Virus record (IMG/VR): IMGVR_UViG_3300035665_001932
Location: 1-21,297 of that record
Strand: one strand, 5' to 3'
Source: a virus
DNA length: 21,297 nt
Shown here piece after piece: positions 3,942 through 9,657 of the stretch (within the stretch, counting starts at the first letter, position 1; every line of letters begins with the position of its first letter). The position numbers were made by a program, and so were the translations under genes. The notes beneath the pieces were generated by a model. The model did no database searches, had not been told where the DNA came from, and saw nothing but the letters and a program-made list of their open reading frames with translations.

Positions 3942-4201
3942 TACGCCCCCTGATATGAGGGATAGTTGCGGCACGGGGCTTTAGTTTCATAAAGTTTAGT
4001 CTCACCTAATTCTTTGCCGTCTAGTTCATAGTGTGCGAAGAATAACGCCGCATCGCAATCACCCTCAAGGTATGCAATAGTGCCTGTCGGCGAGATATAT
4101 GAGAACGACGATATGCCGTTAACTTGTCTCGCCATAAAGCTTGGCACCGCTAACCATTCATGGCCGCAATCGGCCACCCAATATAATCGTTTAGTATTCA
4201 T
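3941..4201 (-). CDS. 86-aa protein with GHxWLxVP and LExDCDA motifs
   Basis: First gene after the promoter at 4247-4275. I chose ATG 4201 because GGGAG lies 9 nt upstream; an in-frame ATG at 4216 would use up that site. The product has a recognisable conserved pattern: WVADCGHEWLAVP (about 8-20), ISSFSYI (31-37), then YLEGDCDAALFF (about 44-55). The same 'D-x-GHxWLxVP ... ISxxSY ... YLExDCDA' arrangement is found in small phage and plasmid proteins of unknown function (DUF7007-like, my best match from memory). It may be an antirestriction or DNA-metabolism accessory protein, but that is not shown here. Confidence 0.7.
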   Translation of the reverse strand: MNTKRLYWVADCGHEWLAVPSFMARQVNGISSFSYISPTGTIAYLEGDCDAALFFAHYELDGKELGETKLYETKAPCRNYPSYQGA

Positions 4202-4220
4202 AGTCTGAACTCCCATTCAG

Positions 4221-4246: not shown

Positions 4247-4275
4247 ATAGTATCGTGTTTGTCGTGTAATGTCAA
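4247..4275 (-). promoter_or_regulatory. Leftward sigma70-type promoter
   Basis: On the minus strand a perfect -35 box TTGACA (4275-4270) is separated by exactly 17 bp from TACTAT (4252-4247), an excellent -10. The predicted start lies near 4240, about 39 bp before ATG 4201. It drives the five genes from 4201 down to 3176. The -35 box abuts the terminator-like hairpin of the upstream clamp gene. Confidence 0.75.
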
Positions 4276-4311
4276 TAGCCCGCCGCCGCCGGTATCGACG
4301 ACGACGGGCTA
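4276..4311 (-). terminator. 16-bp terminator-like hairpin after the clamp gene
   Basis: In the leftward transcript this folds into a 16-bp stem with a 4-nt loop (AUAC), 11 nt after the clamp stop codon. Three of the pairs are U-G, so the stem is continuous only in RNA of the minus strand; the plus-strand RNA would have three C-A mismatches. No U-tract follows, as is common for actinobacterial terminators, so it could instead be an RNA-stability or processing element. Confidence 0.55.
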
Positions 4312-4943: not shown

Positions 4944-4996
4944 TATGTCTAGTCTCCCGTCTAGTAGTTGGTTTATAATCGGCCGCTAAGCCTTGC

Positions 4997-5039
4997 CCCT
5001 AGTCACCCTATGACGGGCTACCCCAATATCAGGCTAGGG
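4997..5039 (-). repeat. Folded intergenic element, copy A
   Basis: Between the 75-aa gene and the clamp gene. An outer stem CCCTAG/CTAGGG (4997-5002 with 5034-5039) encloses an inner hairpin CCC-TATGAC-GGG. The 21 bases at 4998-5018 match copy B (5850-5870) at 19 positions; the two differences are transitions. It lies 7 bp after the upstream stop and 53 bp before the clamp ATG, the same geometry as copy B. Confidence 0.6.
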
Positions 5040-5046
5040 CGACGCG

Positions 5047-5274
5047 CTAAGCGTCTAATTCATTAACTAAATTAGTAAGCCGTTCAATCTCGCCGTTTAG
5101 CGTGTTAATTAGTTCAACAATATTAGTTGCGCCGCTAACCGATAGCCGGATAATCCCGTGATCTAGTGGGCGATACCCTAAATAGTTGTCGATCCCCCAC
5201 GCCGTCAGTTCATTCTCAATGACGGCTAGGGCGTTATCTAGTAGAGCTGCCTGGCTTAATTGTTGGTCGATCAT
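5047..5274 (-). CDS. 75-aa hypothetical protein
   Basis: Starts at ATG 5274, which shares a base with the preceding stop (TAATG). The product begins with an amphipathic helix (QLSQAALLDNALAVIENEL), has a short central part (AWGIDNYLGYRPLDHGIIRLSV) and ends in a helix with heptad spacing (ATNIVELINTLNGEIERLTNLVNEL) that could form a coiled coil. Near the N-terminus QQLSQAALL has no full clamp-binding consensus. No family is recognised. It is the last gene before copy A of the intergenic element. Confidence 0.6.
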   Translation of the reverse strand: MIDQQLSQAALLDNALAVIENELTAWGIDNYLGYRPLDHGIIRLSVSGATNIVELINTLNGEIERLTNLVNELDA

Positions 5275-5486
5275 TACGCCCGCCCGTCTAATTGTCGGCG
5301 ACGGTGGGCGATGATCTCCGCCCGACGCGCCAAACTTGCAGGGTGCCGGCGATGAGAAGCTGCCCGCCCGTATCGTTCCCCAACATATGCGCCGCCAACG
5401 ATGACGGCAACGGCGACGGCAACAAGCCCGCCGATGATCCCCAAATAGTTTAGGGCGTCGCCTAGCGTCGTGATCTCATCAGACAT
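5274..5486 (-). CDS. 70-aa single-pass membrane protein
   Basis: I chose ATG 5486, which overlaps the upstream stop by 8 bp (ATGTCTGA) and follows GGGGG by 4 nt; further in-frame ATGs at 5507, 5522 and 5543 lie deeper inside the neighbour. After a short acidic N-terminus (MSDEITTLGDALN) there is one clear membrane segment (YLGIIGGLVAVAVAVIVGG), then a strongly basic tail (HRRHPASLARRAEIIAHRRR). Topology is probably N-out, C-in by the positive-inside rule. Placement with replication genes argues against a lysis role. Function unknown. Confidence 0.6.
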   Translation of the reverse strand: MSDEITTLGDALNYLGIIGGLVAVAVAVIVGGAYVGERYGRAASHRRHPASLARRAEIIAHRRRQLDGRA

Positions 5487-5793
5487 GGCGCCCCCATTGA
5501 GGATCATCACAAACGGCGACATAGCCGCTAGTTGTCGAGCCAATAACCCACGACCCGCCCCAATTCTGACGGGCTAAATACTGACTGAACGCCTGCGCGT
5601 AATTGTTGGCAACGTCTAGAGAATAATCCCAACTAACGACAAGTCGCATAGGATCGCGCCCACCGTCGGCACGACATACAGCTATCCGGCTGCCCCGATG
5701 ATCCGTTGCCGACAAATATTTAGCCGACAAGCTCACTCTATAAGTTTGCCTAACCTGGCAAACTTGAACTGGCTCTAATTGTTTAACACTCAT
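5479..5793 (-). CDS. 104-aa hypothetical protein
   Basis: First gene downstream of copy B of the intergenic element. ATG 5793 follows GGGAGACTATAAATT, nearly the same leader as that of the clamp gene (GGGAGACTAGACATA), so the two leaders are related. The product has a beta-rich first half (VQVCQVRQTYRVSLSAKYL), a helix (YSLDVANNYAQAFSQYLARQ) and a Trp/Gly-rich end (NWGGSWVIGSTTSGYVAVCDD). I do not recognise a family. Its stop overlaps the membrane-protein start. Confidence 0.6.
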   Translation of the reverse strand: MSVKQLEPVQVCQVRQTYRVSLSAKYLSATDHRGSRIAVCRADGGRDPMRLVVSWDYSLDVANNYAQAFSQYLARQNWGGSWVIGSTTSGYVAVCDDPQWGRHV

Positions 5794-5825
5794 AATTTAT
5801 AGTCTCCCAACTATCTATTTTTTCA

Positions 5826-5843
5826 CGGGGCAGAATTGCCCCG
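5826..5843. repeat. 7-bp perfect hairpin or operator palindrome
   Basis: CGGGGCA-GAAT-TGCCCCG, a perfect 7-bp inverted repeat. It lies in the leader of the 104-aa gene, between copy B and the ribosome site. In the leftward RNA it is followed by an A-run rather than a U-run, so it does not look like a classical terminator. A repressor site or leader hairpin fits better. Confidence 0.45.
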
Positions 5844-5848
5844 CTAGT

Positions 5849-5890
5849 GCCTAGTCGCCCTACGACGGGCGCACCCCTAACGGGCTAGGC
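5849..5890 (-). repeat. Folded intergenic element, copy B
   Basis: Outer stem GCCTAG/CTAGGC (5849-5854 with 5885-5890), inner hairpin CGCCC-TACGAC-GGGCG (5856-5871), and a possible second small hairpin CCC-CTAAC-GGG (5874-5884). Together these would form a three-way junction. It is 7 bp after the upstream stop and 55 bp before ATG 5793. The core matches copy A at 19 of 21 positions, and the inner-stem difference (CGCCC/GGGCG against ACCC/GGGC) keeps the CCC/GGG pairing. Confidence 0.6.
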
Positions 5891-5897
5891 TGCCAAC

Positions 5898-6047
5898 TTA
5901 ATAAAACTCGCCCCCACATTCGCAACGCTCATCGGTCAAATCGACTAGCGTCAATTCTTCACACTCTTGGCACCGTCGGCACTCGCAAACATTAAGCAGC
6001 TCGCCACATACATAACAATAGGTGATCTCGCCCCTAGTTCGGATCAC
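5898..6047 (-). CDS. 49-aa cysteine-rich zinc-finger-like protein
   Basis: A small gene starting at GTG 6047, which overlaps the preceding stop (GTGA). Eight of 49 residues are cysteine, grouped as C11-x2-C14, C21-x-C23-x2-C26-x2-C29 and C42-x-C44-G-G. Eight cysteines can hold two zinc ions, in the manner of a double zinc ribbon or a rubredoxin-like knuckle pair. The second group (CECRRCQEC) is acidic and basic mixed. There is no nuclease or enzyme motif. It ends 8 bp before copy B. It could bind RNA, DNA or a host protein. Confidence 0.6.
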   Translation of the reverse strand: MIRTRGEITYCYVCGELLNVCECRRCQECEELTLVDLTDERCECGGEFY

Positions 6048-6388: not shown

Positions 6389-6441
6389 AAATAGCACCAC
6401 TCCCGAAGTGCGCAGACCACTTGTTTAATGATCCACTACTA

Positions 6442-6470
6442 ACAATATACCAAACATAAACACTTGTCAA
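6442..6470 (-). promoter_or_regulatory. Leftward sigma70-type promoter for the clamp cassette
   Basis: On the minus strand TTGACA (6470-6465) and TATTGT (6447-6442) are exactly 17 bp apart. The predicted start is near 6435, giving a leader of about 47 nt that contains CACT-TCGGG-AGTG, a small hairpin holding the ribosome site in its loop. It is the first promoter of the leftward block. Confidence 0.7.
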
Positions 6471-7681: not shown

Positions 7682-9657
7682 TGCCAGCAGGCCGTTCGGG
7701 GAGGCGCCAAGTACCGCCGCAAGATGTGGCACGATACTGGCAGGCGCGGGCGTCTGGTATGTCCATCAAAGAAGCGGCGAAGATCGCTGCGGTGCATTAC
7801 AACACGGCACAAAAATGGGATGCTAAACGGCGTGTAGCCCAGGCTGACTTGGAGTTGGCGCGTATCGATTCGGGGAAGGTACGCAAAAAAGAGGGTGGTG
7901 TGCAGGCCGATCAATGGAAGCAGGTTATGGATGTCGCTGATTTGCCGCCTGTTATTCCGTTTGACAGGTTGTGTCCTGAGGCGCAGCGGGCTTTGGATGA
8001 TTTCGATTATTTTCGTAGACGCTATTTGGGGCGTGTGCCTTCGCCGTGGCAGGTTGATGCGGCGTACAAGATTGTGGCATGGTTGGAGTCACCGGAGAAA
8101 GAGTTTGTTTGTTTGAACGTGCCGCCTGGCGCAGGTAAGTCGACGTTGTTTCATGATGTTGCGGTGTGGATGATTGTCCGTAACCGTAAGATTCGTGTGT
8201 TGATCGGGTCGGTTACGCAGACTTTGGCGAAACAGTATTCGCGTCGTATCCGTGAAACTCTTGAGCGGCCTTTCCCGTTGGAACCTGATGCGATTCTTGT
8301 GGAGAAAGGGTTGGCTTTGAACGCTGAAGCCTGCCTATCTATCGACTACGGGCGGTTTAAGCCTTCGTCGTCTGGTGCTTTGTGGCGGGCAGAAGAATTT
8401 GTTGTTGAACAAGAATCGTTGGGTGGGTTGGATAATAAAGAGCCGACAGTTTCGGCGTACGGTATCGATTCGGAGTTCATCGGTCATCGCGCTGACCTGT
8501 GTTTGTTTGACGACGTTGCATCCTCAGAGAACTCTAAAGAGTCAGTTGCGCGAGACAAATTGTTGGAACGGTGGGATACGATGGCTGAAGCACGATGCGA
8601 CCCAGGTGGCTTGTTGGCCGTGATAGGGCAACGTTTGGGTTCCGGTGATCTGTACGCACATTGTCTCGGTAAAATCACTTACGAAGATTTCGAGGACAAC
8701 TACGACGGTTCCGATGTCACCGACAAGTCGGCTGGTGTCGAACCAGAAAAAAAATCCAAATACCATCATCTCATCTATAAGGCATACTACGAGGAGTTGG
8801 ATACCGGTAAGGACAGCAAAAAAACTACGTCACCGCCGTGGCCTAACGGACCTTTGTTGGACCCGTACCGTTTGTCGTGGAAAGATTTATCGTACATCCG
8901 CTATAGCACCCCACAAAAATTTGAGGTCGTGTATCAGCAACAAGATTTGGCTACAGGCACATATCTGATTGAACGAGTGTGGGCTACGGGTGGCATGGGT
9001 CCCGATGGGGTGCTGTATCCAGGGTGTATCGATAACGATAGACGCCCAGGATATATTCCGTTGCATCTTGAACCGCCAATAATTTCTATAGCGACAGTTG
9101 ACCCGTCACCAACAAACTTTTGGGCGATCCAATGGTGGCTGTATCAACCTGAAACCAATCTCAGATATTTGATTGATGTTGAACGAACCCGTTTAACAGC
9201 CGAAGAACTTTTAGGGTTTGATACCGGCAGCCGCGAGTACGGCGGCGTAATGGAGACATGGCAAAACAGGTCGTTCGAGATGGGGTACCCGATCTCCCAT
9301 TGGGTTGTTGAGGTTAACGCTGCGCAACGGTTCTTGTTGGCTCACGATTTCGTCAGGAAGTGGCAGGCTCTCCATAGTGTGATGGTAGTAGCCCACACTA
9401 CATCGCGGAACAAACTGGATGAAAACCTGGGTGTGGAAGCCTTGTTGCCACCGTTGTGGCGTAACGGTCAGGTTAGGTTGCCGACTATGCGCGAAAACTG
9501 GAAAACGTTGGCGTTCATCGAGGAGATGACATCTTGGACTCGGAACAAAAAGAACGGCACCGACCTTGTGATGGCGCATTGGTTTGCTGAGTTACACATG
9601 CCTTCTTTAGGTCCTGTTAAGGCGCCGCCACGCCTGTGGCGACCATCTTGGATTTAA
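7681..9657 (+). CDS. terL: Terminase large subunit with N-terminal helix-turn-helix
   Basis: A 658-aa motor protein that pumps DNA into the prohead and cuts it. ATPase motifs: SPWQ adenine-binding motif near 121, Walker A PPGAGKST (148-155), Walker B LCLFDD (273-278), and coupling motif AVIGQR (313-318). RNase H-like nuclease: ATVDPS with D474, VVEVNA with E544, and D628 before VMAHWF as candidate metal ligands. Before these, residues 24-50 read as a helix-turn-helix (ASGMSIKEAAKIAAVHYNTA), which is unusual for a large subunit and more typical of small terminase or transposase-type DNA binding. The N-terminal region therefore may supply sequence recognition. The ATG overlaps the previous stop (TAATG). 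Confidence 0.93.
   Translation: MPAGRSGRRQVPPQDVARYWQARASGMSIKEAAKIAAVHYNTAQKWDAKRRVAQADLELARIDSGKVRKKEGGVQADQWKQVMDVADLPPVIPFDRLCPEAQRALDDFDYFRRRYLGRVPSPWQVDAAYKIVAWLESPEKEFVCLNVPPGAGKSTLFHDVAVWMIVRNRKIRVLIGSVTQTLAKQYSRRIRETLERPFPLEPDAILVEKGLALNAEACLSIDYGRFKPSSSGALWRAEEFVVEQESLGGLDNKEPTVSAYGIDSEFIGHRADLCLFDDVASSENSKESVARDKLLERWDTMAEARCDPGGLLAVIGQRLGSGDLYAHCLGKITYEDFEDNYDGSDVTDKSAGVEPEKKSKYHHLIYKAYYEELDTGKDSKKTTSPPWPNGPLLDPYRLSWKDLSYIRYSTPQKFEVVYQQQDLATGTYLIERVWATGGMGPDGVLYPGCIDNDRRPGYIPLHLEPPIISIATVDPSPTNFWAIQWWLYQPETNLRYLIDVERTRLTAEELLGFDTGSREYGGVMETWQNRSFEMGYPISHWVVEVNAAQRFLLAHDFVRKWQALHSVMVVAHTTSRNKLDENLGVEALLPPLWRNGQVRLPTMRENWKTLAFIEEMTSWTRNKKNGTDLVMAHWFAELHMPSLGPVKAPPRLWRPSWI

Follow-up and report, generated by a model that had tools for sequence, protein, structure and literature searches.

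Two repeated elements in a leftward viral operon

The window analyzed here is a 21,297-nucleotide stretch of viral DNA (IMG/VR record IMGVR_UViG_3300035665_001932, positions 1 to 21,297). On its plus strand it encodes a WhiB-family protein (positions 266-607; Pfam PF02467, E = 1.8e-20), which points to an actinobacterial host. Two short repeated elements, E1 and E2, precede the genes for a sliding clamp-like protein and a 104-aa protein, respectively (Table 1); both elements and the surrounding genes lie on the minus strand. The clamp has eight viral relatives among IMG/VR contigs. The top PHROG match of its gene is phrog_3007, labelled RusA-like resolvase (E = 7.3e-14).

A 20-nt core, CCCGTCRTAGGGYGACTAGG, matches the window only at E1 and E2 (two matches; 0.01 expected by chance). 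According to the table of open reading frames (ORFs), the stop of the 75-aa ORF (5047) and the clamp ATG (4943) lie 7 nt and 53 nt from E1; for E2, the distances are 7 nt to the 49-aa ORF stop (5898) and 55 nt to the ATG of the 104-aa gene (5793). The ribosome sites downstream of the two elements resemble each other (GGGAGACTA). A preliminary description of this DNA had reported two copies with a repeated fold (5039-4997 and 5890-5849), these distances, and the similar ribosome sites, all of which were reproduced here.

Table 1. Positions of the elements, adjoining hairpins, and neighboring genes in the window
Feature	Coordinates	Strand	Basis or remark
E1, mini tRNA-like element before clamp gene	4993..5039	-	Covariance model R1, 57 bits
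E1 acceptor, CCCTAG / CTAGGG	5039-5034 / 5002-4997	-	
E1 P2, CCT-GATATTG-GGG; T-arm analogue, GCCC-GTCATA-GGGT; tail, G-C-A-A	tail 4996-4993	-	
E2, mini tRNA-like element before 104-aa gene	5845..5890	-	Covariance model R1, 67 bits; covariation; gap scan score 22.1
E2 acceptor, GCCTAG / CTAGGC	5890-5885 / 5854-5849	-	
E2 P2, CCC-GTTAG-GGG; T-arm analogue, CGCCC-GTCGTA-GGGCG; tail, A-C-T-A	tail 5848-5845	-	
H1, weak hairpin directly after E1, GGCT-TAGC-GGCC	4981..4992	-	Folds; z = 0.07
H2, hairpin directly after E2, GCGGGGCA-ATTC-TGCCCCGT	5825..5844	-	z = -4.07
DNA polymerase sliding clamp-like protein, 206 aa	4323..4943	-	PHROG phrog_947 (DNA polymerase processivity factor), E = 1.8e-9
75-aa ORF upstream of E1	5047..5274	-	ORF table; no match in family searches
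104-aa ORF downstream of E2	5479..5793	-	PHROG phrog_3199, unknown function
49-aa cysteine-rich ORF upstream of E2	5898..6047	-	ORF table
Ribosome site of 104-aa gene in hairpin loop, ATAGT-TGGGAG-ACTAT	5799..5814	-	Stem compensated in L018/L019 (ATAGA/TCTAT)
Ribosome site of clamp gene between CTAG arms, CTAG-ACGGGAGA-CTAG	4949..4964	-	L018/L019: ATAGA-TGGGAG-TCTAT

Several other structured sites lie nearby. In the lead genes, the Shine-Dalgarno sequence GGGAG sits in the loop of a ~5-bp hairpin a few nucleotides before the ATG (6399-6412, 5799-5814, 4949-4964, and 4205-4220, minus strand), and the stems differ from gene to gene and from relative to relative, with compensation (ATAGT/ACTAT, CTGAA/TTCAG, ATAGA/TCTAT, ACTAG/CTAGT, and GCGGT/GCCGC). 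This hairpin, seen in clamp-family phages but not in the other phages that carry the elements, is possibly an operator for an RNA-binding protein. After the clamp gene, a long GC hairpin (about 4276-4311, minus strand) is followed 3' by a promoter-like sequence (TTGACA-17 nt-TACTAT; 4247-4275, minus strand), a small hairpin near the predicted transcript start, and then the hairpin ribosome site of a 91-aa gene, which probably starts in reality at the ATG at 4201 and not at 4216. Another promoter-like sequence (TTGACA/TATATT; about 6444-6470, minus strand) precedes the first gene of the leftward operon, and a conserved inverted repeat, GATCATTAAACAAGTGGTC, with variants in relatives, follows it. 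The gap scan described below found no element in either promoter-like gap of the window.

Comparative support for the fold

E1 and E2 fold as a three-way junction in which the outer stem, P1, encloses two hairpins, the short P2 and then P3. Past the outer stem, each copy continues for 4 nt as a tail of the form R-C-W-A (GCAA in E1 and ACTA in E2). The outer stem and the CCC/GGG hairpin had been recognized in the preliminary description, which overlooked P2 between them. The single-sequence folding energies of the two copies were not significant (z = -0.85 and -1.31); thus, the case for the fold rests on comparison. Rfam scans of the window returned no relevant match, and a DNA similarity search of the region against isolated phages returned none.

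All eight IMG/VR contigs encoding a close clamp relative carry E1 before the clamp gene. E2 is present in those clamp-relative contigs where the next gene stands apart from the previous one and is missing from L007 and L021, where these two genes share the overlap GGAGTAATG. At the orthologous clamp site of L016 and L018, the arms of E1 are entirely different yet still paired (GCCCTAG / CCCGC-ATTG-GCGGG / ACACG-TTCGCGA-CGTGT / CTAGGGC), and the loop is of the T-loop type (TTCGCGA/TTCACGA). A pattern scan for the window-type element retrieved nine more viral contigs with unrelated gene contexts and gave 0 matches in genome contigs.

Across 22 distinct sequences, 94.9% of alignment cells were paired and seven pairs had changed on both sides; none of 500 shuffled controls reached any of the measures. 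The outer acceptor pair in alignment A3 occurs as CG, GC, and UA, within a 6-7 bp stem that shows compensatory variation. Because P1 was partly fixed by the search pattern in this set, its CTAG says little alone. Nor is CTAG, listed as a feature in the preliminary description, essential to the stem, as many elements have acceptors of other sequence. A covariance model matched in all 18 records first tested, often several times per record, and then in all 32 viral records tested, a proportion that is no estimate of prevalence since every one of these records had been found by pattern. Neither of the two outcomes that the preliminary description had named as refuting its reading was seen: other phages contain many further copies, and compensatory changes preserve the stems.

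The elements resemble the upper half of a tRNA

Two weaker covariance model matches, L069:1026 (GCCGTAG-CCCTGCGGGGTTGA-TCAGG-TTCGTAA-CCTGA-CTACGGC-ACTA) and L068:3037 (CTAGG-TTCGATA-CCTAG, then CTAGGC-ACTA), consist of a tRNA acceptor stem and a T-arm with T-loop, ending in a discriminator-like 3' end; a short insert replaces the D and anticodon arms. A second pattern scan, using this T-arm form, retrieved 14 more contigs beside the known L029. Every one of them agrees in both sequence and position, and many have a D-loop-like GG in the insert. Canonical-loop and GTCATA forms occur within the same genomes (L069 and L037), and the loop positions T55-C56-R57 are common to all forms, including those of the window.

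The class has a 6-7 bp acceptor, a T-arm with the loop TTCRANN or the 6-nt variant GTCATA, an acceptor/T stack of 11-12 layers, a short insert bearing the D-loop GGT where the D and anticodon arms would be, and a 3' tail of R-C-not-C. Among 44 elements from isolated phages, scored with the tail excluded, R73 was present in 43, C74 in 43, and C75 in 1; GGT occurred in the insert of 39, and the stack had 12 layers (n = 34) or 11 layers (n = 10). In the window, E1 stacks GGGT+GA+CTAGGG before GCAA and E2 stacks GGGCG+A+CTAGGC before ACTA, giving 11-12 layers that end in R-C. The 3' strand from loop to discriminator measures 12 nt in both, as in tRNA. Their 6-nt loops (GTCATA and GTCGTA) keep T55, C56, and R57 and are not the standard T-loop TTCRANN.

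ARAGORN called no tRNA gene in the window or in L068, L069, L114, and L117, and the elements, which have no anticodon arm, do not qualify as functional tRNAs. Of the isolate elements, it called a single one, as tRNA-Val in Gordonia phage VanLee. Rfam at the gathering threshold misses nearly all elements; subthreshold matches include tmRNA and mascRNA, the best score among relatives to mascRNA-menRNA (RF01684) being 25.4 bits versus a gathering threshold of 42.5, with no match for the window copies. The comparison shows that E1 and E2 keep what corresponds to a tRNA's upper half, in which acceptor stem and T-arm form one stack, together with an elbow and R73 plus C74; the anticodon arm is lacking.

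Distribution in isolated phages

A blastn search with one element retrieved unannotated matches in isolated actinophages. We surveyed intercistronic gaps above 40 nt with a direct scanner and dinucleotide shuffle controls. In the leftward operon of VanLee, an element was found in 16/16 such gaps and none in the leading promoter gap; in Mycobacterium phage Cuke, 10/15 gaps contained one. Antisense controls for these two phages gave 0, and shuffles reached the threshold in 0-0.3%. Phage Indlulamithi (11/11) and Gordonia phage Cafasso (7/7), each chosen for a single blast match, had every gap filled in the stretch read. Corynebacterium phage PSonyx carries two elements, and Stiles has one followed by a CCGGCC/GGCCGG hairpin (blastn and inspection by eye). 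The same scan found no element in cluster A phage D29 (38.5-49.1 kb) or in TM4 (20-52.8 kb). The elements fill every gap above 40 nt in some operons and are absent from promoter-bearing gaps.

The blastn matches in Pseudomonas, in Vibrio PG07, and in Trixie, a cluster A phage, have the look of normal tRNAs or of tRNAs close to full size and were not counted as members. tRNA-like sequence was also seen near the right genome end of Mycobacterium phage Trixie (L101) and of Cuco (L115). At the right genome end of D29 and L5, a very abundant stable noncoding RNA has been reported (PMC5712189).

That E1 and E2 belong to a class of intercistronic mini tRNA-like elements widespread among actinobacteriophages is well supported. 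The preliminary description had proposed a leader specific to the clamp and the 104-aa protein; it is instead a generic tRNA-like unit before many unrelated genes in many phages. A search for an earlier report of these elements, subscription papers and preprints aside, found none; they may be known elsewhere. Such elements would be overlooked because tRNA finders and Rfam miss them.

A hairpin follows the element

Directly 3' of the tail and before the ribosome site lies a further hairpin, H (median z = -2.49 over 67 sites, 52 of them below -1.5), compared with a median z of -0.59 in sequence 5' of the element. In the window, the order of tail, hairpin, Shine-Dalgarno sequence, and start codon is found at both elements, strongly for E2 and weakly for E1. 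The counterparts of H1 in relatives fold better (z = -2.18 in L016 and -2.59 in L018). A hairpin in the 3' terminus of the preceding gene was rejected as an invariant component, being present only sometimes.

Proposed function and alternatives

We favor, at a probability of roughly two in three, a reading in which E1 and E2 provide tRNA punctuation as decoy mini tRNAs cut by host RNase P and RNase Z. RNase P would cleave the polycistronic RNA on the 5' side of the acceptor, and RNase Z, an enzyme that does not accept CCA tails, would cleave it after R73. The operon RNA would be split into separate mRNAs, the upstream message ending a few nucleotides past its stop codon and the downstream message starting at hairpin H, which would cap and protect the new 5' end. 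Expression of the downstream gene, here that of the clamp and the 104-aa protein, would thereby be set apart from that of the upstream gene. The preliminary suggestion of one shared mechanism, possibly a processing site, fits this reading well; it had missed the mini tRNA nature of the fold.

On binding the acceptor/T stack, RNase P measures the distance between the elbow and the acceptor end; RNase Z clamps the elbow, with CCA as an antideterminant (PMC4919913). These determinants are what the elements conserve, and C75 is avoided. CCA addition is required in mycobacteria, which also possess RNase Z; 32/45 Mycobacterium tuberculosis tRNA genes are without CCA (PMC10673834). Counting against processing, a tail with W or G at position 75 pairs less well with RNase P RNA than the usual RCC does, the window loop has 6 nt, H1 is not significant by energy, and D29 (in the region scanned) and TM4 are without elements.

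The same acceptor/T half and elbow are also the recognition unit of tRNA-binding host or phage proteins (EF-Tu, the CCA-adding enzyme, a synthetase, or a phage regulator), one of which could bind the mimic without cutting it and control translation of the next gene, in keeping with the placement of the elements before start codons. We regard this as unlikely: the elements precede dozens of unrelated genes, fill every gap in some operons, and nearly always have a separate hairpin next to them, and their tails avoid the CCA that EF-Tu and synthetases need. The protein-binding leader of the preliminary description found no indication here. Slightly less probable still is an uncut block, whose compact fold would halt exonucleases and separate upstream from downstream decay. 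Its position right after the stop codon, the stable folds, and the adjoining hairpin H would suit such a role, but a plain hairpin would suffice for it, and conservation of the T-loop TCR, the D-loop GGT, R73-C74, and the 11-12 layer stack would be left unexplained.

A transcription terminator, attenuator, or put-like antiterminator might be expected of structured intergenic RNA within an operon of nonstructural genes. It is nevertheless very improbable, as there is no U-run 3' of the fold, the tRNA-specific positions would go unexplained, and a copy in each gap would mean repeated termination. We give marginally less credence again to decaying or mobile tRNA genes, or to DNA-level recombination boundaries between gene cassettes. 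The sequence is tRNA-like, and flanking genes vary between relatives while the element stays: one and the same gene end ('...LDA stop'; GACGCTTAG) precedes E1 in L019/L020 and E2 in L016/L018 (around 9200-9270), so gene cassettes are shuffled between elements. Such origins are at odds with the strict one-strand orientation (0 antisense), the compensated stems, and the complete replacement of the arms at one site; moreover, these phages have their real tRNA genes at other places.

Beyond the window, we think it probable, with a little less assurance than for E1 and E2 themselves, that a large, varied range of actinobacterial phages (of Mycobacterium, Gordonia, Corynebacterium, and probably freshwater hosts) use mitochondrion-like tRNA punctuation, with one anticodon-less mini tRNA per gap in series, cut by RNase P and RNase Z, and hairpin-capped mRNAs. 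If true, a general, unrecognized level of gene control would be at work in phage collections that are well studied, and phage mRNA processing would be tied to host tRNA maturation enzymes. The elements would also be natural minimal RNase P and RNase Z substrates and compact insulators for actinobacterial expression systems.

Comparison with known systems

Repeats upstream of nonstructural gene starts are known from cluster K mycobacteriophages as SAS/ESAS, for which the authors did not support the 17-bp inverted repeats as RNA hairpins (PMC3203893). E1 and E2 share with these a repeated element upstream of start codons of actinophage nonstructural genes, and identity with SAS/ESAS was considered and rejected, as TM4 is without the element and the anatomy differs. 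The 13-bp SAS/ESAS sequence (GGGATAGGAGCCC) and the 17-bp inverted repeats are absent from the window leader sequences read. Bacterial RNase P also acts on phage RNAs that are not tRNAs or that lack CCA, among them phi80 M3 RNA, P1/P7 C4 RNA, and T4 tRNA precursors (PMC11143913). Unlike the elements, these are single RNAs with other folds and are not serially intercistronic.

The subthreshold Rfam matches have parallels in anatomy. The tRNA-like domain of tmRNA has an acceptor stem, a T-arm, and a stemless D-loop and has no anticodon arm. One element region (L114:1301-1340) matched tmRNA (RF00023) below threshold (E = 1.3e-6), but the elements have no tag reading frame or CCA-type tail, span only 40-60 nt, and lie in cis in the mRNA. 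The mascRNA and menRNA, tRNA-like RNAs of MALAT1 and MEN-beta, have their 5' end made by RNase P and their 3' end by RNase Z. They are likewise small tRNA-like folds without a full anticodon arm, to which the elements show subthreshold matches of 22-25 bits; they differ in being vertebrate, with one per transcript at the RNA 3' end, whereas the phage elements occur many per operon, between genes, with a hairpin next to them.

In animal mitochondrial tRNA punctuation and with plant mitochondrial t-elements, mRNAs are freed when RNase P and RNase Z cut the tRNA or tRNA-like units that lie between genes. The present case differs in involving double-stranded DNA phage genomes, mini tRNAs, bacterial host enzymes, and a cleavage that we infer; if correct, it suggests that tRNA punctuation also arose outside organelles. 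The closest kind is that of tRNA-like elements processed by RNase P and RNase Z, such as mascRNA and t-elements.
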